64,000 bases of DNA from Bacteroidota bacterium (GTDB lineage: Bacteria; Bacteroidota; Bacteroidia; Cytophagales; Cyclobacteriaceae), in the NCBI GenBank assembly GCA_018266395.1, contig JAFEAM010000017.1, positions 124,001-188,000 on the forward strand, written 5' to 3'. Below are positions 9,935 to 20,804 of the stretch, piece after piece. The number at the start of each line of letters is the position of its first letter. The stretch's first letter is position 1. Below the pieces are notes generated by a model. That model searched no databases, was not told where the DNA came from, and worked only from the letters and a program-made list of their open reading frames with translations. The position numbers and the translations under genes were made by a program.

Positions 9935-10540
9935 ATGAAGCCACTCATCATTCTACTCACCATTCTTTCGTTCGCTGCGTGCACGGGGAATAAAGATCAA
10001 ACCGCAGATACTTCGACCTCGCAAGTTGTCGCAAAGGAACAGGCTGATTTTAAAGTAATCGCTGATCAAGAGGAGCCTGACACTGTAAAAGGTAGCATCA
10101 AAGCGAAGGCGATGGGTACGATAGGCGATGCACCGATAACTATAAACTACTACTCACCGGCTGTTCGGGGACGTATCATCTGGGGCGGACTGGTTCCTTA
10201 CGATCAGGTGTGGGTGACAGGTGCGCACCGGGCCACAAATATTGAGTTCGATAAAGATTTGAAGATTGGTGAGAAAATCGTTCCGCCGGGCAAGTATAGT
10301 TTGTTCACTATTCCCGGCAAAGATCAGTGGACCCTCATCCTCAATAAAAATTGGGATCAACACCTTGCCGATGACTACGACATGAGCCAGGATGTCGTCA
10401 GGGTGAATATAAAGCCAGCCGCTAATGATCTGCCTCAGGAACGTCTACAATTCACTATTAAATCTGAATCGTCTGACGCCGGTGCCATTTCAATCAGGTG
10501 GGAAAAAGTATTAATTGAGCTGCCGGTTAGCATCCAATGA
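9935..10540 (+). CDS. DUF2911 lipoprotein
   Basis: 201 residues with a lipoprotein signal (FAACT, Cys16). The core matches the DUF2911 pattern of Bacteroidota: SPAVRGRIIWGGLVPYDQVW, then TGAHRATNIEF, then PPGKYSLFTIPG and LNKNWDQH. Function of the family is unknown; the proteins are exported and single-domain. It begins 5 bp after the BNR lipoprotein and is the last gene of the copper block. Downstream DNA changes character and enters the accessory island. Confidence 0.85.
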   Translation: MKPLIILLTILSFAACTGNKDQTADTSTSQVVAKEQADFKVIADQEEPDTVKGSIKAKAMGTIGDAPITINYYSPAVRGRIIWGGLVPYDQVWVTGAHRATNIEFDKDLKIGEKIVPPGKYSLFTIPGKDQWTLILNKNWDQHLADDYDMSQDVVRVNIKPAANDLPQERLQFTIKSESSDAGAISIRWEKVLIELPVSIQ

Positions 10541-10597
10541 TTTCGATGTATCAGTTCAAACCGACAAACGCTCAAAACAAAAAGAACGCAAAGATTC

Positions 10598-10618
10598 TTA
10601 TTCCTTTTCATTAATCAT
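10598..10618 (-). pseudogene. Vestigial start of a divergent gene (MINEK)
   Basis: On the minus strand, copy A of the leader encodes ATG ATT AAT GAA AAG GAA TAA, that is MINEKE then stop. The same positions of copy B are the real start of the nuclease-like gene at 13819 (MINEKNN...). One extra base in copy A shifts the frame and creates the stop. It is best read as the remnant of a divergent gene that once began here, or as a conserved translation-initiation region. Confidence 0.5.
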
Positions 10619-10785
10619 CGTACGAATTTAGGCTTATGCCGGAATATGCTTGCAAGGAATTTCCGGCATAAACGGTTTCCCCCTTACAGCTATCGCTTTC
10701 AGGAACTCCCATTTATTCCGTTCCTCCTTGCGCAAATTCCTTCATAAGCCGGCCTGCGCACCATAATTAATTCAAACGATTATGG
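10598..10785 (+). repeat. Structured leader element, copy A
   Basis: About 188 bp, repeated with clear similarity at 13800-13989, each copy ending at the ATG of a + strand gene. Inside is a perfect 11-bp inverted repeat, TTATGCCGGAA (10634-10644) and TTCCGGCATAA (10661-10671). A second pair nests across the element: AAGGAATTT (10654-10662) with AAATTCCTT (10734-10742), extended by CTTATG (10633) with CATAAG (10743). The two pairings share sequence, so alternative folds are possible. There is no T-tract after the hairpin, so it is not a simple terminator. An untranslated leader RNA or a regulator-binding region is the likely role. Confidence 0.85.
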
Positions 10786-11321
10786 AAAACACAAAAAAAT
10801 TTGAAGTACTAGTAACACAATTGAACAGATTCAGTAGAAAATTTGTGGTTGAGGCCACGTCACCACTTGTGGCAAGGGCGGCAGTAAAAGAAATGATCAC
10901 GACACAGCCAGTAGATGCAAGAAAGGGAACGTTTGACGGTGGTGAGTTAATCATGAGAGTAAGGGAAGAATCTCAAGCCGAGGACGCTCCAAAGTCTTGG
11001 TTTGCGCCCGCAGTGGTGGAGATTGACCTTCAGGACAATGAAAGGCTCAATGTAACACCAACTGAGGTTGCAGTTCAGAAAGCATTCGGAACTGTAATGA
11101 GACGATTGAGAGAGCGTCTGAAACTCAGCCAAAGACAGTTCAGCCATTTGGTATACCTTAGACAACCGACAATCGGTGTCCTTGAAAGAGGTGAAACTGG
11201 TGTCAGGCTTTTCAACTTCATTAAGATCGCGGTGGCGCTGGATAAGGCACCCGATGACCTTCTGCGGATCGTCGCTAACGAATACGAAAAAATGAATCAA
11301 GTGAATCAGGGTTCATCGTAA
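10782..11321 (+). CDS. XRE-family transcriptional regulator with an unknown N-terminal domain
   Basis: 179 residues. Residues 1-60 form a small alpha/beta-looking domain (KFEVLVTQLNRFSRKFVVEA...) that I do not recognise. Residues ~103-165 are a helix-turn-helix of the Cro/CI (XRE) type: MRRLRERLKLSQRQFSHLVYLRQPTIGVLERGETGVR. It follows leader copy A with no gap and its 3' end overlaps a convergent small XRE gene by 9 bp. It may control the leader copies and the minus-strand pair; the inverted repeats in the leader would suit a dimeric repressor. That link is inference. Confidence 0.75.
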   Translation: MENTKKFEVLVTQLNRFSRKFVVEATSPLVARAAVKEMITTQPVDARKGTFDGGELIMRVREESQAEDAPKSWFAPAVVEIDLQDNERLNVTPTEVAVQKAFGTVMRRLRERLKLSQRQFSHLVYLRQPTIGVLERGETGVRLFNFIKIAVALDKAPDDLLRIVANEYEKMNQVNQGSS

Positions 11322-11579
11322 TGAACCCCCGTTCTCCATAAAAATCTTTTCCGCCAAGGACATTAACTCGTAGGCGCTAATATCTAGGCCTTGCGCTAGT
11401 TCCTTAATTGTAGTCAAGGGTGGATCAGCAGTTTCATTTTCAACCTCATTTATTAGGTGCTCCGAAAGATTGGATTTAGTAATAACAGATGCGTTAGAAA
11501 CCCCCTTTTCAGACTTGATCTGTTTGAATGCTTTGCAAAATGCTTGATTGAATTCCATTGCCGCAATTTGTAAGGTCAT
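11313..11579 (-). CDS. Small XRE-like DNA-binding protein
   Basis: 88 residues from the ATG at 11579 (an ATG at 11558 is also possible; the open frame continues upstream, but in AT-rich, non-protein-like sequence). The body, MEFNQAFCKAFKQIKSEKG...ITKSNLSEHLINEVENE...TIKELAQGLDISAYELMSLAEKI, fits a Cro/CI helix-turn-helix with the usual last helices. It converges on the other XRE gene with a 9-bp overlap of their ends. The two nuclease-like genes lie upstream on the same strand, ~200 bp away, so it may be read from their transcript or from its own promoter. Confidence 0.65.
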   Translation of the reverse strand: MTLQIAAMEFNQAFCKAFKQIKSEKGVSNASVITKSNLSEHLINEVENETADPPLTTIKELAQGLDISAYELMSLAEKIFMENGGSLR

Positions 11580-11784
11580 CAACGTCAAAAAGTAAAAAGG
11601 ACGCAAAAGTAGGTGCTCATCCGAAAACGAAAAGGCCGTGGTGAATGGGTAATCTGTTGTTGTTATCTGTATGGGATTACCCAGCCTTGTCATTTTCTTT
11701 TTCGCACCTTAGCAATTGGCTTTCTTTTTATTTTTTTCTGTTTTTTCATTTTCTTTTGAAAACGTTCCCACTGTCAAAGTCTCG

Positions 11785-12966
11785 TTAACTCACGTCTTGA
11801 CTCAGATAATCAGAATCAATATGAAGAATTTCTCCAATGCCTTTCCCTTGGATAAGTTTTCTGGTTGGAAAGAGTTGATCAGTGTCGTTAAATATGTATT
11901 GGTCAACATTGAGCAGTGTCGTCTTTATCGGGTTCTCAGCCCAGGGATTGTGCCAGAGAACGGGACGCGCGCTATCGAGGCTCCATCGACCTAGATCTTT
12001 AAAAAGCAGGATACCTGATACAGTTTTATTCTGTGGACGACCATTGCATTTCCAGTAGCCATCCTCGTAGAACAACGTCTGCATAATATCTATTTCATCT
12101 AAGTACATATCGAAACTATTCAGACAAATCAAATACGGGAGATGAAGAGTTCCGTATTTGCTTGCGCGTTTTCGATTCAATGAATTCCGAAGCGGGCTGA
12201 TAGAATCAATGATTTCAGCGCCACCACTTCCATTTATTCCGAGCGTTCGTGGACGCCCTTTTGGTTTAGGAATCAACGAGAAAATAATTTTCCACTCACC
12301 CTCTTCCATGATCCATTTGTTAAGATCAATTAGAGAAGTTATGGGCTGCTGTCCTGCGCCTATTACCTTCTTGACAAAGGTGATAATCTTGTTCTTCGCG
12401 ATGGATGCCGTACCGGCTCGTTCAAACTCCACATTGACGTAATATTGGGGTGAAGGGATTGACTCTATTATTTCCTTGATTTCATTCTCCAGTCTTTCTG
12501 TACCTGGATTATGATTTGGAAGACCAGATAACGTGCATTCGGCGATTAGAATTTCCTGCTTTCTTTTATAGGCCGTGAAGTCGGGACGTCGACTTGAATC
12601 TGCTACTGAATGGGTTTGAAAACTAACTTTATATCCGTGGTGGCGTAGCAATTGAAAAGTGATCAATTCAAAAAATGCCCCCGCATGTTCTTTATCGTCA
12701 CGAGATGTAAACCTGGCAACAAAGTCTTTGTCGATCGGAAAATCGCAAGCCCATTCCGTCACTTTGTCTCTCACATAGGAGGCTGCCTTCCAAGCAGACT
12801 TGTTCAAGAAGTCATACGCAGAGCTCGTGTGGCTCGCCCTAGCACCATCCGTTCTTTTAAAATCATCAAACAAGGAAATGTTATTCTTTTTCATTTGTCT
12901 TCTTCCGCATACTCGCCTAAAGTGAGAAACTAGCCGACGATAAATTCTAGCTGCGACACTTGTCAT
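11785..12966 (-). CDS. Unrecognised protein with a PD-(D/E)XK-nuclease-like core (island gene 2)
   Basis: 393 residues from the ATG at 12966, which follows the upstream stop by one base (TAAA ATG) and has AAGAGG in front; an ATG at 12894 is an alternative. I do not recognise the family. Residues ~90-150 look like a nuclease fold: HAGAFFELITFQLLRHHGY with Glu100 in a helix, then RRPDF with Asp129, then ILIAECTLSG with Glu143. The usual Lys of the ExK motif is replaced (E-C-T), so the site may be altered or inactive. The N-terminus is Arg-rich and basic. The last ~230 residues have no recognisable motif. It forms a two-gene operon with the gene at 12968. Confidence 0.6.
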   Translation of the reverse strand: MTSVAARIYRRLVSHFRRVCGRRQMKKNNISLFDDFKRTDGARASHTSSAYDFLNKSAWKAASYVRDKVTEWACDFPIDKDFVARFTSRDDKEHAGAFFELITFQLLRHHGYKVSFQTHSVADSSRRPDFTAYKRKQEILIAECTLSGLPNHNPGTERLENEIKEIIESIPSPQYYVNVEFERAGTASIAKNKIITFVKKVIGAGQQPITSLIDLNKWIMEEGEWKIIFSLIPKPKGRPRTLGINGSGGAEIIDSISPLRNSLNRKRASKYGTLHLPYLICLNSFDMYLDEIDIMQTLFYEDGYWKCNGRPQNKTVSGILLFKDLGRWSLDSARPVLWHNPWAENPIKTTLLNVDQYIFNDTDQLFPTRKLIQGKGIGEILHIDSDYLSQDVS

Positions 12967-12967
12967 T

Positions 12968-13819
12968 TTAGGCCTCTTGATTGCTGTTATAGAAATCAAC
13001 TATTGATCGAATCGTCCCAAACATGTGCACCTTCTGACCATTCGCTCGTGTAAAGGATGCAAAACTCGTAGGCTCTACTGTATTCCTAAAACTGATCCCG
13101 CTCACCCGGTAAAACAAGTCTATCCGGACGAGCTCTTCGAACGATCCCCAAAAGACCGGAATAAGCTGAAAATTTGGATTTTTCCGAATGCCCGTGATAT
13201 TAAGTTTGTGCTGAATTTTCTGATGAAGAAGATTATTTACTCGCTCATCCGACCAGTTGGCAATATCGGTTAAGTGAACGTTCACAACCTCTACCAAAAG
13301 GGTGGATGATTTATTGACGTCAAGGAATTGAAAATCAATTCGAGGTCCGTTGGGAACAGAACTCACCACAGGGACTTCAGCATTCTGTAGCTTGAATTGG
13401 GTGTTACGTTTCATGTTATTTAACACAAGAAGCTCGCCGAGGAAATTTCTGAACTTTCTATCAATGTTGGTCAGTAAACCATATAGAGCAGGAACGACTA
13501 GTCTTCGTTCGTCTCGATCAAGCCTTTGGATCAACTCTTCGAAAACCTTTTTAATAAAGTCAAGATGGGTGGCAGCCTGTTGATTGCCTTCAATCGCCGC
13601 AGTAATAATATTATAAAATGATGCTTCAACCCGAATGGTGCCACCATTTGCTTTAGCCTTCCATTGATTAACCTTTCTTGTCAGGGCTTTTGCTGCTGTT
13701 GTCCAGTCCAATTTGTTGTCCCCAAGTAATTCAAAAAATACCGGGAAGTATACTCGAAGACGGCCCTCGACATCGAGCCTTGATTTCTCTACGGGGGGGT
13801 TATTCTTTTCATTAATCAT
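12968..13819 (-). CDS. Unrecognised protein with a second PD-(D/E)XK-like core (island gene 1)
   Basis: 283 residues; the start MINEK lies in leader copy B, so the gene is divergent from radC. Family not recognised. The N-terminal 110 residues are helical. Residues 124-182 show the order of a restriction-endonuclease-like core: RNFLGELLVLNNM with Glu129, PNGPRIDFQF with Asp162, then LLVEVVNVHL with Glu177. The Lys expected two residues after that Glu is Val here; a Lys-rich helix (HQKIQHK, 200-206) follows and could supply one. The same degenerate core occurs in its operon partner, so the two may work as a heteromeric nuclease or sensor pair. Defence against phage or plasmids is the leading guess, not shown. 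Confidence 0.6.
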   Translation of the reverse strand: MINEKNNPPVEKSRLDVEGRLRVYFPVFFELLGDNKLDWTTAAKALTRKVNQWKAKANGGTIRVEASFYNIITAAIEGNQQAATHLDFIKKVFEELIQRLDRDERRLVVPALYGLLTNIDRKFRNFLGELLVLNNMKRNTQFKLQNAEVPVVSSVPNGPRIDFQFLDVNKSSTLLVEVVNVHLTDIANWSDERVNNLLHQKIQHKLNITGIRKNPNFQLIPVFWGSFEELVRIDLFYRVSGISFRNTVEPTSFASFTRANGQKVHMFGTIRSIVDFYNSNQEA

Positions 13820-13989
13820 TACTCAAATTTACGCTTATGCCGGAATGAGCTAGCAAGGAATTTCCGGCATAAACGGTTTCCCCCTGGCAGTCGTGCCTCC
13901 TTTCAGGAACCCCCATTTATTCCGTTCCTCCTTGCGCAAATTCCTTCATAAGCCTGCCGGTGCTCCATAATTAACTCAAACGATTATGG
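13800..13989 (+). repeat. Structured leader element, copy B
   Basis: Second copy of the element at 10598-10785, ending at the ATG of the RadC-like gene. The 11-bp arms TTATGCCGGAA and TTCCGGCATAA are identical in both copies, while the loop has changed (TATGCTTGC against GAGCTAGC), still keeping a small inner GC..GC pair. The outer pairing AAGGAATTT / AAATTCCTT and CTTATG / CATAAG is kept as well. Conserved arms with a changed loop point to selection on secondary structure. The other end carries the start codon of the divergent nuclease-like gene, so the element is a two-way intergenic control region. Confidence 0.85.
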
Positions 13990-14453
13990 AAACATTAAAT
14001 GAAAAACAAATGCAACAGGTGGCCGAAATTCAGCTCACCTACAAGTCCAATGTGAAGCCCTCAATGAGGCCCAAGATTTCAGGATCAAGGGACGCTTATG
14101 AGGTTCTGAAAAGTAACTGGGATCCGTCTAGGATTGAGTTCCTTGAGCAATTCAAGGTAATGCTTTTGAATCGTGCCAACAAAGTGTTGGGAATTCTGGA
14201 AGTGTCAACGGGAGGAGTTACCGGAACAGTTGCCGATCCAAAAGTAATTTTCGCTGCTGCTCTTAAAGCGTGCGCGTGTGGGCTTATAGTGGCTCACAAT
14301 CATCCTTCGGGAAATTTGACAGCGAGCCAGTCAGATATTGACCTCACTAAGAAGCTAAAGCAAGCAGGGCAATTTCTCGAACTGCCTCTTCTTGATCATG
14401 TAATCGTCACAAGTGAAGGCTACTTTTCATTTGCCGATGAAGGGCTTATATAG
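13986..14453 (+). CDS. RadC-like JAB-domain protein (mobile-element type)
   Basis: 155 residues with a JAB/MPN metalloprotease-type fold and an intact JAMM motif: Glu72 (GILEVSTGG), then H104-N-H106, seven residues, Ser114 and Asp117 (AHNHPSGN...SQSD). It lacks the helix-hairpin-helix region of full-length RadC (~220 residues). Short forms of this kind are common in phages, genomic islands and conjugative elements of Bacteroidota; the biochemical role is unsettled and a DNA-repair label is not justified. It is preceded by leader copy B and followed by the hairpin-repeat array. Confidence 0.85.
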   Translation: METLNEKQMQQVAEIQLTYKSNVKPSMRPKISGSRDAYEVLKSNWDPSRIEFLEQFKVMLLNRANKVLGILEVSTGGVTGTVADPKVIFAAALKACACGLIVAHNHPSGNLTASQSDIDLTKKLKQAGQFLELPLLDHVIVTSEGYFSFADEGLI

Positions 14454-14671
14454 GCTCTGGAGAGGAAGTGATTCAATAAAATTCAATGTCATTTTGAATC
14501 ATTTTCTTTCCATCAAATCTCTCTAAATCGTATCTTTATAAATGAGTTCGTCACATACGAATTGATTCACTTTGACTTAAACGCTTGGTGAACTATTCGG
14601 TGACCTCCAAAAAAGTGTTCTTATAAGTTACTGTAAAATAGGGGGTTGTGAGAAAGGTTATCATCCTCTCA

Positions 14672-15050
14672 CCCCGACTTCGGCCGCTGAGTTTTACATT
14701 TCATAGTAAGCTTCAGCGGTCGTTTTATTTGCATTTCATAGATCATTTGCATTGGCCTTCGTCGGGGCAAGCCCCGACTTGAACTACGCCACTGAAGTTA
14801 GCTTTTCATAGTTAGGCTTCAGCGGTCTTTTTTTTGTGCATTTCATGGATCATTTTATGTGGCCTTTGTCGGGGCAAGCCCCGACATGAACTACGCCGGT
14901 GAAGTTAGTTTTTCATGGTAAACTTCATCGGTCTTTCATTTGCATTGCTTAGATCATTTGCAATGGCCTTCGTCGGGGCAAGCACCGACTTAAACTACGC
15001 AGCTGAAGTTTGCTTTTCATTGTAAACTTTAGCGGTCTTTCATTTGCATC
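14672..15050. repeat. Tandem array of four ~105-bp double-hairpin repeats
   Basis: Four units, starting at about 14672, 14772, 14879 and 14983, fill most of the 820-bp gap after radC. Junctions carry the hairpin GTCGGGG-CAAG-CCCCGAC (14761, 14868; one mismatch at 14972). Each unit holds a second hairpin, CTGAAG...CTTCAG-like, 25-35 bp apart. Sequence differs between units but pairing is largely kept through G-T wobbles, for example CCGGTGAAGTT with AACTTCATCGG in unit 3. Units share TTTGCAT and GATCATTTGCA words. No open frame spans it. A repeated structured RNA or protein-binding DNA array is likely. Confidence 0.85.
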
Positions 15051-15084
15051 ATATTGCGCTCTGCAAAGACGCGCGATGATGTTG

Positions 15085-15105
15085 ACTCAATTAGTTGAGT
15101 TTTTT
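15085..15105 (+). terminator. Hairpin terminator after the repeat array
   Basis: ACTCAA-TTAG-TTGAGT forms a 6-bp perfect stem with a 4-nt loop, followed directly by a run of Ts. It would end transcription that comes through radC and the repeat array. Confidence 0.65.
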
Positions 15106-15124
15106 GTGGGTTTTATACCCAACA

Positions 15125-15149
15125 TGTGGAAAGTCTCCACACTTTTATT
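15125..15149 (+). terminator. Second hairpin terminator
   Basis: TGTGGA-AAGTC-TCCACA, a 6-bp perfect stem, is followed by CTTTTATTT. With the hairpin 24 bp upstream it makes a double terminator that closes the island on the right. The remaining ~120 bp up to the next gene is AT-rich with nothing else visible. Confidence 0.6.
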
Positions 15150-15273
15150 TATCAATTTTGATTAACTGGTTCCTTTAAAATGCTTCTGTAGCTAGGATAT
15201 GGTCTTGAACAAACTGAATGATACTTGGTACCATACTTGTTTACAAAAAACTAACAACAATTTCACATGATTG

Positions 15274-15705
15274 ATGGATAATAGAACCAGGACACTTTTC
15301 AAATCCTTAACTTATATTTTCATAATCCTACTGGTTTTTAGGATTGTCTCGAATATAAATCTTGGCTTATTTCCACTTACGAGAATCTTCGTTCACGTTT
15401 TTATTATTGTGATACTCAGCCTAAGAAATAAGGTAACCTGGACTCTGGGTATCATTTTCTTTTCATGTTGTTTGATTTATTATCTATTCATCTCGGCGGG
15501 AATTACTTATCCCAGTGAAGTTGAGTTCACATTGCCAATTGTGGAGCTTTTCTTTGGCGACAAACACGGGTTTTCCAATGCCGAACCAATAGTGTGGTTG
15601 CTCCTGTGGATGCCTCTGCCTTTTTATCTTGGCATAACTGCCTGGTTCCTTACTAAGAAAATAAGAAACCTTTATTCGTCTGTTGACATCTTAAAATGGA
15701 GCTGA
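15274..15705 (+). CDS. Small hypothetical membrane protein
   Basis: About 143 residues from the ATG at 15274 (a TTG lies one codon upstream). Four hydrophobic segments are visible: YIFIILLVFRIVSNI, FVHVFIIVILSL, LGIIFFSCCLIYYLFI and WLLLWMPLPFYLGITAWFL. No family recognised. The DNA is clearly more AT-rich than its neighbours, and it stands alone between the terminators of the island and a minus-strand methyltransferase, so it may belong to the accessory region. Confidence 0.6.
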   Translation: MDNRTRTLFKSLTYIFIILLVFRIVSNINLGLFPLTRIFVHVFIIVILSLRNKVTWTLGIIFFSCCLIYYLFISAGITYPSEVEFTLPIVELFFGDKHGFSNAEPIVWLLLWMPLPFYLGITAWFLTKKIRNLYSSVDILKWS

Positions 15706-16001
15706 GAAGCAACAGAAATCAATCGGAAGATGTTTTAAATCTTCAACTCTATCGTTTCACTTTCTGTTCTTGAGATAGACCAGAAAACATAAATTCCAAA
15801 GACGGAAGTGTTTCAGCGCTGGCTATCATGGGCGATGCTGAGATCGCGGAAGCGATGAGGAATGATTAATTCATACTAAGCGCTTATTGACTAAATGCCA
15901 TTGGCGATTGATTGCTTGAACTCAACCACTTCCTTTTGATACTGGTAGTACAGACCACTGAATGTCTTCGATTTTAGCGTAGCCTAAATCCTTTGTCTGG
16001 A
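15706..16001. other. Intergenic stretch with a possible coding relic
   Basis: Nearly 300 bp with no convincing gene. Around 15811-15870 one + frame reads SALAIMGDAEIAEAMRND then stop, which has protein-like composition but no start or upstream frame. It could be the tail of a lost gene; I see nothing else. Confidence 0.3.
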
Positions 16002-16619
16002 CTATGCAGCCTTTCTGAAGCTGCAAAACAAGAAGTTCTGAATAGTGTGAAATGGAGTTTCATGATCCTCTGTAATGCACCGGAGTTTATTGAAGTCCGA
16101 CTTAAGTGCTGCCGCAAGAGCATCTTCAGAATATTGCCTTATAGTAAGACCGCTGCACTTGTTAGGGCCGGTAGATGAGAAAGTGCCAATGGTCATGTAG
16201 CCATTATGATCCAGCCCCTTTGAGGCAATTGCAATATATTTCTTGATTTGAGCTTCATCTGTCAGAAAATGGAAAGTAGCGCGATCGTGCCATACATGGT
16301 ATTGTCGTGACGGTACAAATTCAATGATGTCGCTTTCAATCCATTGCACCCGGGTTGCTTTGTCCCCTAATCGTTCTCTGGCGCGCTGCAAGGCAACTGC
16401 TGAAATGTCGAGCACAGTAAGGTCACTGAACCCTTCATTCAAAAGATAATCTACCAAACGGCTATCGCCACCCCCTACGTCAATTATCGGAGTGTTCTTT
16501 TCAAGGTTAAAACCGTGAAGGAAGTCCAGCGAAGCGGTAGGGGTGAGCTGGCTCCAGCTCATTTCTTCGCTTTTCTTCGTTTGATAGATTGCTTCCCAGT
16601 GTTCCTTACGGCTTTTCAT
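16002..16619 (-). CDS. Class I SAM-dependent methyltransferase
   Basis: 205 residues. The AdoMet-binding loop is PIIDVGGGDSRLVDYLL (DVGGGDS, residues 47-53), followed by an acidic ribose-binding strand (DLTVLDIS) and the motif II region ESDIIEF. The start HWEAIYQTKKSEEMSW and the block WHDRATFHFL resemble small-molecule methyltransferases of the thiopurine / trans-aconitate kind. Substrate cannot be told from sequence. It is the last of a minus-strand series and 29 bp separate it from the DUF302 gene upstream. Confidence 0.85.
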   Translation of the reverse strand: MKSRKEHWEAIYQTKKSEEMSWSQLTPTASLDFLHGFNLEKNTPIIDVGGGDSRLVDYLLNEGFSDLTVLDISAVALQRARERLGDKATRVQWIESDIIEFVPSRQYHVWHDRATFHFLTDEAQIKKYIAIASKGLDHNGYMTIGTFSSTGPNKCSGLTIRQYSEDALAAALKSDFNKLRCITEDHETPFHTIQNFLFCSFRKAA

Positions 16620-16648
16620 TTTTGTTTGCCAGGCTAATCAATTCACGA

Positions 16649-17038
16649 CTAAATGCTTTCGATTACTTTCAGAAGTTTGCTCCTCACTTCATTTGCCAGG
16701 GTTTCAATGTTCTTGTCTCCAACCGGATTCATTGCCGCTACCGGATCAATGGTCGCCAATTCTATTTCGCCGGACTCTGTCTGTCGCAGCGTTACATTGC
16801 AAGGCAGCATGGTGCTCATGTGTGGGTCCGTACTCAGGACTTTGTCCGCATAAACAGGATTGCAAGCGCCGAGTATGACATGGGGAAGATAGTCCTTGTT
16901 GAGTTTCTTCTTTATCGTAGCCTGGAGGTCTATTTCGGTAAGTACACCAAATCCTTCCTTTTGCAGAGCGGCCGTTACCTGGGTGCGAACAGCATCCATC
17001 GTGGCATTTTTAATAGTTTTTGACAGGAAATATTTCAT
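16649..17038 (-). CDS. DUF302 domain protein
   Basis: 129 residues from the ATG at 17038; an in-frame ATG at 17089 would add a non-conserved tail. Single DUF302 domain: TMDAVRTQVTAALQKEGFGVLTEIDLQATIKKKL, then LGACNPVYADKVL and a final beta strand region with ATIDPVAAM. DUF302 proteins are small alpha/beta proteins of unknown function, found widely and often near thiol or metal-stress genes. No signal peptide, so cytoplasmic. It probably shares a transcript with the methyltransferase. Confidence 0.85.
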   Translation of the reverse strand: MKYFLSKTIKNATMDAVRTQVTAALQKEGFGVLTEIDLQATIKKKLNKDYLPHVILGACNPVYADKVLSTDPHMSTMLPCNVTLRQTESGEIELATIDPVAAMNPVGDKNIETLANEVRSKLLKVIESI

Positions 17039-17146
17039 AATGGAATTTTTGTGCAAAGGACGGAAATTCAGAAGTCTGGTCTGCGACAAATGTCACAGAA
17101 GGTCAAAGGTAGTCCCTTTCGGCTGAAGTAATCGGTGGTGCTGAGG

Positions 17147-18274
17147 TTATTGCTCAGGGAAAACTTCAAATAACAGTAACTGTGTCTCCTGAGTCTCCTG
17201 GAAATTATTATCACTGACAAAAAGCAGGCTGCGGTGGCCATTGGCAAGCGCTGGACCAAAAGTGACGCCTTCGACATTATCCACATAAACCCCCAATGAT
17301 TCCATATTTAACAGCAGCGTCTTCTGCATCGGAACAAAACTTTGGTTGGAGCCAAGCGACGAAAATTCTTTTACGTCTGTAGCCTTGCTAAAATCAGCCT
17401 TAAAGACTTTGATAACACAACCTTGTTTTCCAGTTGAAAACGACCGTTCAATGACCAGTAATTCACTTCCTCCAAGATAGAGTATCTCGGAAATCCCGTT
17501 GACCTTGAAACCATCTGCAGGAGCGGAAGGGTACGCAACAGGCTCCAGCGCATAGGCGTACTGAGCCTTCTGCTTGCCCTCCGGCAACCCGAGTTGAAAG
17601 AATCGCACCCAGAATGGCCCTTTGTCCAATGAGGCGCGGGGACCATCCTCCATTAAGGGTTCTTCAAGACAGGTGAACAATTCCGAGTATTCCTTGTTGA
17701 AGGTTATGCCCTCCAACGCTCCGTTGTTTCTTGGACCGCCTTCCGCCTGTTTCATGTGAAGAATTTCAGGCAGAATGATCTGACCGGTTTCCTTGCCGGT
17801 CAGATCGGCGATATGGACCGAAGGATTGATGAGTGATCCAGGCTGCCCCACTTTCCTTTCACCCTCATCAGACCAGAACAATTGTTGAGTCTGCCTGTTG
17901 AACCTGATGCTTTCGGCGTCGGCGTTTCCAGGCCGGCTTCCTACCATCGGCCAGACATTCAGAAAATGCAGACTGTCGATTCGTGTACCTGTAATATGAA
18001 GTCTTGCCTCGTAAAATCTTGCCTGTTTGTCGTCAGATATGAAGATCAAAGACTTATCCTCCGGTATATAGTCAACACCTGAAAGACCTCCAACCCGTGT
18101 CTTCTCGAAGGACGTGTTATAAGGAATCGTGAAGGTCTGAAGGTAGCGCAGACCACGTATAGTTTGTTTTGCTTGCCCGTGAGACACGTGACTTACCAGC
18201 ATTAAACCAATCAGCAATGTGAAAAAATGCCTGTTATGGTTTCTGTCGGGATTGAATACAAATGAAGAGATCAT
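17147..18274 (-). CDS. Secreted esterase-like / phytase-like beta-propeller protein
   Basis: 375 residues with a signal peptide (hydrophobic core LLIGLMLVSHVSHGQA, cleavage near residue 35). The mature part matches the 'esterase-like activity of phytase' family: GGLSGVDYIPEDKSLIFISDD at the start, NADAESIRF, a central GALEGITF and VEGVTFGPALANGHRSLLFVSDNNF near the end. These are predicted six-bladed propellers acting on phosphoesters; activity is not shown for most members. It is followed upstream by a TonB-dependent receptor 55 bp away on the same strand, so uptake plus hydrolysis of a phosphate ester is a plausible joint job. Confidence 0.85.
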   Translation of the reverse strand: MISSFVFNPDRNHNRHFFTLLIGLMLVSHVSHGQAKQTIRGLRYLQTFTIPYNTSFEKTRVGGLSGVDYIPEDKSLIFISDDKQARFYEARLHITGTRIDSLHFLNVWPMVGSRPGNADAESIRFNRQTQQLFWSDEGERKVGQPGSLINPSVHIADLTGKETGQIILPEILHMKQAEGGPRNNGALEGITFNKEYSELFTCLEEPLMEDGPRASLDKGPFWVRFFQLGLPEGKQKAQYAYALEPVAYPSAPADGFKVNGISEILYLGGSELLVIERSFSTGKQGCVIKVFKADFSKATDVKEFSSLGSNQSFVPMQKTLLLNMESLGVYVDNVEGVTFGPALANGHRSLLFVSDNNFQETQETQLLLFEVFPEQ

Positions 18275-18329
18275 GGGTGTTGGCAGTATTCCATCTGCAA
18301 AGTAAGCAAAGGAGATGCCGCAGTTGACA

Positions 18330-20804
18330 TCAATTGTCGGTTTCTTCGGCTTTCAGTTTTCTTTCCTTTTCCTGCAATTTCTTGCCAATCCTGTAGCTGA
18401 AGTTCACCTTGAATATGAAGTTGTGAAGTGTGCTCGTGGTTCGTTGTGATACATATGGAGAATCCAACACTGAATAGACGTTGAAATTCGGAGTGGCGAA
18501 GTTGTCAACGCCCATGCCCAGCGACCCTGCCTTATTCCAGATTTCCTTTCTTACGCCGAAGCTCTGCGTGTTCACCCCTGTACGATATCCTTGCAGGTTG
18601 AAGGAACTACCCTGAAAAACAACAAACAGCTGTGCTGACCAACCTTTGTTGAAGTTATAGTTACCTGAAAGCCGGTAGTTCTGTGTGAAGCCGCTGTTGG
18701 TTGTGTTTAGGATGGCAACATTTGAATTGTTCCTGAGTATGCGATAGATCCAGTCGATGCCGCCATTCAGGGTAAAACGTTCTGTAAAATTGATGCTTGC
18801 AAATGCTGTAAATCCATAGTTTCCTTCCGAACCGAGATTCTGGTATACGGAAATAATGGTGTCATTTTTTACGACACGTGCGGGCTGAATATCGTTGGTG
18901 TTGTACCTGGACCAAAGCGAAAGGTTTAGGGTTCCTTTGGGGAGATTGGTTTTGTAAGCAATTTCATAATTGTCGGCAAACTCAGGTTTGAGGTTTGGAT
19001 TGCCCAGGGTTGCATTGAGCGGATTGGATGCCTGCAGATTGGGATTCAGCGCCTGGAGCCATGGGCGGACAATCCGCCGGTTATAGGCAATTCTCAACTG
19101 CCGTCCTTTTGTAAGCTTGCGTGTCAGATTCACAGAGGGGACCATCACTCCATACGAGGGGATGCTCAGATCGGGTTGCCCTTCAAAGTGTGCGTTGATG
19201 CTGGTGTATTCATAGCGTCCGCCTGCCTTTGCAGACCATCCGCTTTTGGAGTCAATGGAATAGCTGAGATAGGCTGCCGTGATGTCCTGCTGGTAGTTGA
19301 AATTATTGTTCAGTCCCGGTGCAGTGGAGGGAACAAAAGGGCCTGAATCACCTTGTCCCTTATAGTAAGTGTAATCACTACTGACATTCCGCCAGGTTCC
19401 CTTGCCTCCGAATTCCAGCATCTGATTTTCGCTGATGGGTTCCTGATAATCAATTTGCACACTGGTCTCCTGGTTGAAACCGTTATTAACATTCCTGTAA
19501 CGGTAAAGGTCAGCAGGGTTTGTGGCCTGCTCAGTAGAGGAGGTGTACTCCAGGTTCTGGTCATTACGGCTGAAGATAGCCAGCATATTGAGCTGCCTTC
19601 TTTTCTTTTCAAAGTCGCGGGTGTAACCTATGCTGCCGTCCAGGTTGGCACCGGTAATGATGGTTTTCACATTTCTCAAGGTTGAATTGATCAGGCTGTC
19701 GTGCCGGTAGGTATTGGTCAGCAAGTCATCCTGATACGCATTCATTGAACGTTGCCCGTAGCGGGTGCTGACATTCACGGAGTTCTTCGCGTTGATGTCA
19801 TAGTCCCAGTTCAAAGTAAACTGATTGTTGAGCCCGTCGCTTCTGTTGTGATTGGTCTGAACATTGAGCAGGGTGTCCTTATCGGACCTGGTGGTCTGTT
19901 CATTATGAAAGTCAGAAATGACATTGTACTGCCAGCGCTGGAAGGCGCCCATGGACACCCCCATCTTGCCTCTGCGGTAGCTCACGTTGGCTCCTGCGTT
20001 GGAACCCCTGGTGCCGGCGCTTCCATCAGCGTTAACGAACATCCCTTCCAGTGTATTCTTCTTGAGGACGATGTTGATTATGCCGGCAGAACCCTCAGCA
20101 TCATAAGCCGCGGAAGGCGATGTAATGACTTCCACACTTTTGATCATATCTGCCGGAATTTGTTTGAGGGCGTCTGCTACACTCGTGGCAGTAATGGTAG
20201 AAGGTTTATTGTTGATTAGCACCCTGACGCTGGAACTTCCCTTCAACGATACATTTCCGTCCATATCGACAGAGAGCATGGGCACACGCTTCAATACATC
20301 TGTTGCATCACCACCTTTTGTGGTAACATCTTGTTCCGCGTTATAAATGGTTCGATCCACTTTTTCTTCCACCAGGTTCTTTTCTCCTTTCACCACAATC
20401 TCTTCAAGCAACTTTACTGAGACCGAAAGCGATAGGGTTCCCATTTCGAGATCTTTCCTGGACCCCACGACGACCGGTATCTTCTTCGATTCGTAGCCAA
20501 TGAAAGAGATAACGACATCATACCGCCCGGCCCCCATTTTGGTTATGCTAAAGCGTCCCTTTTCATCTGCCACCGCTCCGTTAACCGGTTTGCCTGTTGC
20601 AGGGTCGAGGACTGCCACATTGGCGAACTCTACCGGCTGGTGGGTCAGTGAATCCGCAACAGAGCCCGTTATCCTGTAATTCCCTTTATTGGGGTTGACC
20701 TGGCCCATAGCAAGTGTTGACCTGATGAACAAAAATGTTATGAGTAGAAGCGGAATAAGATTTGTTCTCGTCCGGTTTTGCACTGAAGGTAAAGGGGCAG
20801 GCAT
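18330..20804 (-). CDS. TonB-dependent receptor, outer membrane beta-barrel family
   Basis: About 824 residues from the ATG at 20804, chosen because it puts a normal signal peptide (NLIPLLLITFLFIRSTLAMGQ) at the N-terminus; ATGs at 20840 and 20903 give longer, poorly charged leaders. Domain order: carboxypeptidase-regulatory-like domain (ITGSVADSLTHQPVEFANVAV...), plug domain (VDRTIYNAEQD...VLKRVPMLSVDMDGNVSLKGSSSVRVLIN, AEGSAGIINIVLKK), then a long barrel of the OMP_b-brl_3 type ending in VNFSYRIGKKL plus a charged tail. It would import a ligand with TonB energy. Ligand unknown; the phytase-like neighbour hints at a phosphate ester or chelate. Confidence 0.87.
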   Translation of the reverse strand: MPAPLPSVQNRTRTNLIPLLLITFLFIRSTLAMGQVNPNKGNYRITGSVADSLTHQPVEFANVAVLDPATGKPVNGAVADEKGRFSITKMGAGRYDVVISFIGYESKKIPVVVGSRKDLEMGTLSLSVSVKLLEEIVVKGEKNLVEEKVDRTIYNAEQDVTTKGGDATDVLKRVPMLSVDMDGNVSLKGSSSVRVLINNKPSTITATSVADALKQIPADMIKSVEVITSPSAAYDAEGSAGIINIVLKKNTLEGMFVNADGSAGTRGSNAGANVSYRRGKMGVSMGAFQRWQYNVISDFHNEQTTRSDKDTLLNVQTNHNRSDGLNNQFTLNWDYDINAKNSVNVSTRYGQRSMNAYQDDLLTNTYRHDSLINSTLRNVKTIITGANLDGSIGYTRDFEKKRRQLNMLAIFSRNDQNLEYTSSTEQATNPADLYRYRNVNNGFNQETSVQIDYQEPISENQMLEFGGKGTWRNVSSDYTYYKGQGDSGPFVPSTAPGLNNNFNYQQDITAAYLSYSIDSKSGWSAKAGGRYEYTSINAHFEGQPDLSIPSYGVMVPSVNLTRKLTKGRQLRIAYNRRIVRPWLQALNPNLQASNPLNATLGNPNLKPEFADNYEIAYKTNLPKGTLNLSLWSRYNTNDIQPARVVKNDTIISVYQNLGSEGNYGFTAFASINFTERFTLNGGIDWIYRILRNNSNVAILNTTNSGFTQNYRLSGNYNFNKGWSAQLFVVFQGSSFNLQGYRTGVNTQSFGVRKEIWNKAGSLGMGVDNFATPNFNVYSVLDSPYVSQRTTSTLHNFIFKVNFSYRIGKKLQEKERKLKAEETDN

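Follow-up and report, generated by a model that had tools for sequence, protein, structure and literature searches.

A likely PD-(D/E)XK-type gene and a hairpin leader on a mobile element of a Cyclobacteriaceae bacterium

We examined a cassette of two adjoining minus-strand genes, here called gene 1 and gene 2, in a 64,000-nucleotide (nt) stretch of contig JAFEAM010000017.1 (assembly GCA_018266395.1, positions 124,001 to 188,000; the whole stretch is hereafter the window) from a Bacteroidota bacterium of the family Cyclobacteriaceae. Gene 1 likely belongs to the PD-(D/E)XK fold class, as judged from its motif, its AlphaFold model, and weak structural matches. The chance that gene 1, alone or together with gene 2, defends against phages or competing DNA as cargo of the element, kept in check by one or both of the adjoining XRE proteins, appears to us to be about even, and the two genes could form a defence module not described before. 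The cassette is accompanied by two copies of a leader, a covarying hairpin that has no Rfam match and that is a more unusual part of the region than the cassette itself. The features are as follows (aa, amino acids).

10604 to 10781, plus strand: left leader copy, a repeat, ahead of regulator A
10782 to 11321, plus strand: XRE-type regulator A, by profile; helix-turn-helix (HTH) 106-160; leader copy ahead of the gene
11313 to 11693, minus strand: XRE-type regulator B, by a weak profile match; HTH match from residue 54
11785 to 12966, minus strand: gene 1, likely PD-(D/E)XK-type protein of 393 aa (open reading frame (ORF), motif, relatives, AlphaFold model)
12968 to 13819, minus strand: gene 2, a rare protein of 283 aa (ORF; E129...D162...E177-V-V-N180)
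13805 to 13985, plus strand: right leader copy, a repeat, ahead of RadC
13986 to 14453, plus strand: RadC/JAB protein of 155 aa, by profile
14683 to 15045: units of about 104 nt in tandem, immediately beyond RadC

Gene 1 and its family

The core residues of gene 1 are E100, D129, and E143-C-T145, which supply the acidic trio E, D, E of PD-(D/E)XK proteins, and the conserved part of the protein begins at about residue 31. In the AlphaFold model (predicted local distance difference test (pLDDT) 78), a core of alpha-beta-beta-beta-alpha-beta order (helix 91-109, strands 113-116, 130-134, and 137-147, helix 154-168, strand 175-183) surrounds E100, D129, and E143, as in the PD-(D/E)XK fold. The structural matches of this model were weak, and about 35 of the 50 rows listed in the search are proteins that we take to have this fold. 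Motif and model, with these weak structural matches, support the nuclease fold class that a first-pass annotation of this DNA had proposed. The motif residues given in that annotation were themselves correct, and only their labels were swapped when the genes are numbered by coordinate: E129/D162/E177 belong to the protein of 12968-13819, and E100/D129/E143 to that of 11785-12966.

In alignments of 16 family members, E100 was kept in every row and D129 in 15, with E in the remaining one; E143 met a conserved E column once the loop gap was placed by hand, the MAFFT alignment being one column off. The usual Lys is missing from both cassette proteins, as had been noted before, with T145 in its place in gene 1 and V179 in gene 2. 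When the family was inspected by eye, the position two residues after the second acidic residue held Lys in four of the 16 members and T (seven), V (three), I (one), or R (one) in the other 12. These replacements, together with the loss of Lys from both cassette proteins, speak for a reading in which both are catalytically dead nuclease folds with a DNA-binding or structural role, for example in the transfer or maintenance of the element. We consider this unlikely, given the retention of E100 in all 16 members and of D129 in all but one, and the occurrence of several relatives in records where no conjugation gene was seen nearby by eye.

Gene 1 is not a chance ORF, since 80% or more of it is matched in six plasmid records (E 1e-14 to 4e-26). 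The family, of nuclease-like proteins, is sporadic across several phyla, occurs also on plasmids, and may be an orphan defence family. Searches of phages and viral contigs gave no match to gene 1, nor did the first scan of genome contigs, which used gene 1 alone. Scans against Pfam, NCBIfam, and solved structures likewise gave no match for gene 1 (its relatives were scanned against Pfam alone), and both cassette proteins remained without a named family, in line with the first-pass annotation, which had recognised neither.

The nearest known systems were found with anti-phage profiles of PADLOC: over its core, gene 1 matched PD-T7-1 at E 3.2e-5 and PD-T7-5 at E 1.6e-4 (for PD-T7-5, residues 63-164 on profile positions 26-117 of 346), and four of its relatives matched PD-T7-5 at E 1e-4 to 1.3e-8. 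The PD series, including PD-T7-1, came from a selection from the E. coli pangenome (PMC9519451), the main text of which does not name PD-T7-5. The likeness, seen by PADLOC profile, is confined to a core of about 70-150 residues, whereas the C-terminal half of gene 1, with an invariant K266 and an NPWA motif, lies outside the alignment. Most relatives of gene 1 stand singly, by eye, as those systems do; in the cassette a second gene lies ahead.

Gene 2 and the pairing of the two genes

The first-pass annotation described two minus-strand genes joined by TAAAATG at 11785-12966 and 12968-13819, and the ORFs, strands, and spacer bear this out: the junction reads TAA-A-ATG, with 1 nt between the ORFs. 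The start codon of gene 2 falls inside the right leader copy. Gene 1 may instead start at Met25 (12894), close to the position where the sequences of its relatives start in the alignment.

Gene 2 itself proved to be very rare. In 389 other genomes of the order only one relative was found, a distant one with 23 percent identity (E 5.5e-5), and it retains E129, D162, and E-V-V-N; no match was obtained in 57 other relatives, 394 other genomes of the phylum, plasmids, phages, or viral contigs (the samples of 57, 389, and 394 genomes overlap). The neighbours of this single relative are, by eye, short-chain dehydrogenase-like and GIY-YIG-like genes, and no gene 1 match was found near it. A single-sequence model of gene 2 (pLDDT 41.8) was unusable for fold assignment. 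In the viral library, a fold search had no hit below E 0.001. Homology between gene 1 and gene 2 was considered and rejected (hhalign probability 0.3 percent; blastp pieces at E >=3 only). In the reading that we favour, gene 2 is a very rare, possibly related partner of gene 1.

We then asked of the ORFs around other gene-1-type loci (13 + 8 loci, of which one, L037, repeats L026) whether gene 2 was present, and phmmer found it at 0 of 20 distinct loci. Among these 20, the membership of L034 is doubtful (E 9.5e-4), L030 and L039 end at contig edges, and L032/L033 and L007/L040 are near-duplicate contexts; two more gene-1 loci, L011 and L012, lie outside the set scanned. By eye, the relatives of gene 1 were mostly single genes. 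The recurring two-gene system suggested by the first-pass annotation was thus not found, at these loci or beside the relative of gene 2. With the Met25 start, gene 1 and gene 2 would be 73 bases apart, and the coupling implied by TAAAATG would be weaker.

The same absences, and the lack of any profile similarity between the two proteins, favour a reading without any two-gene system, in which the nuclease-like protein of gene 1 is an orphan that stands alone and gene 2 merely happens to lie upstream, unrelated to it. We hold this to be somewhat unlikely, as the two genes adjoin on one strand with a gap of 1 nt (73 nt from Met25), and elsewhere, in two genomes, a gene-1 relative stands immediately behind a gene for a different type of nuclease. 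The first of these is on an Acinetobacter plasmid (L009:4846-9164), where an operon of the cyclic oligonucleotide-based antiphage signaling system (CBASS) type, comprising a cyclase, a small gene, an AAA ATPase, and NucC, ends with a gene-1 relative placed 3 bases after the NucC gene; in L012, a short reading frame alone follows NucC. The second is in a Cytophagales genome (L042:6582-9869), in which a PLD-like gene, a gene-1 relative carrying the motif E-V-K, and a NERD gene are tightly packed, the PLD-like gene lying 3 bases upstream of the relative and the NERD gene directly after it. These cases, with the window as the third, suggest that gene-1-type genes pair with varied nucleases. One further relative lies near a SIR2_2 protein.

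NucC is itself of the PD-(D/E)XK class. We considered whether the DUF6602 gene beside the Acinetobacter relative was the equivalent of gene 2, and dropped the idea: the gene matches NucC profiles and so is part of the adjoining CBASS genes. In contrast to this effector, neither cassette protein matches the NucC or DUF6602 profiles, and there is no cyclase among the cassette genes.

The mobile element and the regulators

On the same contig, to the left of the window, the first gene in the series is a tyrosine integrase that has Arm and SAM domains; a MobA-type relaxase comes next and then RteC, followed by DUF4917 (PDC-S21), a pair of DUF4365/REase-type and short Argonaute genes, and DUF2971 and PIN genes; then come the transfer genes TraG and DUF4138, metal efflux genes (by eye), a heavy-metal ATPase, the cassette, and RadC. 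The distance from integrase to RadC is about 70 kb, and the cassette lies in the right-hand part, near that end. The short Argonaute pair matched its profiles at E 1.5e-61 and 2.5e-132, and together with the DUF4917/PDC-S21 gene it is found at L080:2586-6808, within this element and some 45 kb to the left of the cassette. Because of the integrase, relaxase, TraG, RteC, and Argonaute genes, the element reads as an integrative conjugative element that already carries a defence pair, in line with the accessory island described at first pass. The G+C content was 0.40-0.43 in windows over the cassette and 0.44-0.49 in most of the preceding 4 kb.

The position of the pair between two XRE regulators and RadC, also described at first pass, is supported by profiles. 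Regulator B is, like gene 1, on the minus strand; it lies downstream of that gene and is convergent with regulator A. Its HTH score is under the cut-offs of Pfam, and the internal Met46 is a possible alternative start. The five proteins encoded in 10782-14453 gave no match to a DNA methyltransferase, as a restriction-modification system would have, when scanned against Pfam and NCBIfam. A sigma-70 promoter and terminator scan of 10500-15300 showed no clear excess (promoters, 5 versus 8.5 in shuffles; terminators, 5 versus 4.8).

With two XRE genes adjoining the pair in a mobile context, the cassette could be a toxin-antitoxin or addiction module, in which the nuclease-like proteins would harm the cell unless the XRE proteins kept them off. 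We find this improbable: XRE genes are common on such mobile elements, and by eye, a survey made without a profile test, no HTH gene lay directly beside the relatives of gene 1, some being 3-4 kb off (L009, L034). In the defence reading that we favour, the element would protect itself and its host by a defence of nuclease type, consisting of gene 1 alone or together with gene 2, one or both XRE proteins would hold the nuclease-like pair in check, and the leader may add control upon entry into a new cell. Co-transcription, DNA cleavage, defence, and repression of the cassette are all steps that we infer.

The structured leader

A leader repeated around the cassette had been noted at first pass, and its two copies, at 86% identity, were the only ones found in the genome, which rules out a dispersed repeat of this genome. 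The leader has a core of CGGCATAAAC-loop-CAWTTATTCCG inside a long imperfect hairpin. The exact core pattern had 39 matches in 16 of 176 family genomes (own included), with at most 8 per genome, and a reversed control had none. Loci were examined for 30 of the 39 matches, leaving nine without. The leaders compared came from the window copies and from L083-L112, L114, L117, L120, and L121 (Bacteroidota DNA). Six of ten viral stretches (L113, L115, L116, L118, L119, and L122) were dropped by eye as one unrelated shared context, leaders identical to others (L099, and those repeated in L109 and L110) were left out, and the resulting 34 rows represent 33 leaders, L102_19 being the same as L109_27.

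Single leader sequences folded better than their shuffles (z -3.2 and -5.2). In an RNAalifold consensus of six leaders, 9 of 37 pairs had changed on both sides and yet were kept, with a covariation term that was unfavourable overall (+1.37 kcal/mol). The search pattern leaves the outer helix of seven pairs unspecified; in 28 distinct rows, this helix had on average 6.43 of 7 positions paired, versus 5.46 (standard deviation 0.14) when the 3' arms were re-dealt; this level was reached in none of 5000 shuffles, the best of four registers being allowed on both sides and row kinship not being controlled. In one fixed register, the 33 rows averaged 5.88, a value for which no shuffle was made for comparison. 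A model built from the 33 rows is mostly a sequence model because it has only 7 base pairs; it found a leader that the pattern had missed, ahead of another RadC (L078, E 1.1e-11), and no further clear copy in the searched stretches of its own element. Rfam gave no relevant match to the leader, and the radC and STAXI motifs gave none at E <=1 in the window stretch, <=0.5 in six loci, and <=10 in two loci. A description of the leader was not found in one limited literature collection searched by sequence, DUF6943, and radC with hairpin.

RadC was the gene most often behind the leader (18 of 33 distinct leaders). DUF6943 followed two by profile and five more by eye, an unnamed gene of MLDYI type followed two, and a DUF932-like gene was seen by eye behind one, an assignment that found no support when its first 60 residues were scanned with profiles. 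Four leaders (L096, L097, L100, and L120) had no clear gene behind them, and one, in the window, precedes XRE regulator A. Since the start of regulator A, MENTKK, resembles the MENTKE of the RadC behind the same leader in L108, this regulator may have captured a RadC leader together with its start. RadC domains of mobile elements are considered likely nucleic-acid processing domains by Iyer et al. (2017; PMC5512222). CRISPR (clustered regularly interspaced short palindromic repeats) repeats of RF01320 were observed at L104:56-697, beside two RadC leaders.

STAXI (RF01728), the radC motif (RF01754), and the Frpo of the F plasmid are likewise structured elements near or ahead of genes of mobile elements. 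In Weinberg et al. (2010; PMC2864571), a single-stranded DNA structure is considered possible for STAXI, and the radC motif and STAXI are listed for Enterobacteriales and Proteobacteria, with the radC motif in Proteobacteria; the leader differs from both in its occurrence in Bacteroidota and its lack of an Rfam match. Frpo are promoters that enable leading-region genes to be read from single-stranded DNA, as described by Samuel et al. (2024; PMC11541004), a leading-region study whose main text does not contain the word "Bacteroid". The leader shares with Frpo a long imperfect hairpin upstream of mobile-element genes, a likeness of layout. By this analogy, the leader could be an undescribed Bacteroidota counterpart of Frpo or STAXI, its hairpin allowing genes to be transcribed from the single strand as it enters, with the second copy driving regulator A as an early repressor of the nuclease pair, an idea to which we give only an outside chance. 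The leader would then most often drive RadC and sometimes DUF6943-type genes, and the repressor would be made first on entry, so that the nuclease pair stayed off for as long as the element was not yet established. The leader could explain the timing of gene expression on entry in conjugative elements of Bacteroidota.

Ends of the element

Attachment-site repeats were sought and rejected, as no exact 12 nt were shared between L123 3300-4000 and window positions 14400-16100; the ends of the element were not found, with no 14 nt shared between L123 2000-6000 and window positions 14400-18500. The tandem units at 14683-15045 contain GTCGGGGCAAGCCCCGAC palindromes and possibly lie close to the right end. 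Beyond RadC, at window positions 16002-16619, is a methyltransferase-like gene; a second such gene, with 46 percent identity to the first, is located at L123:5289-5954, just inside the integrase at the other end.
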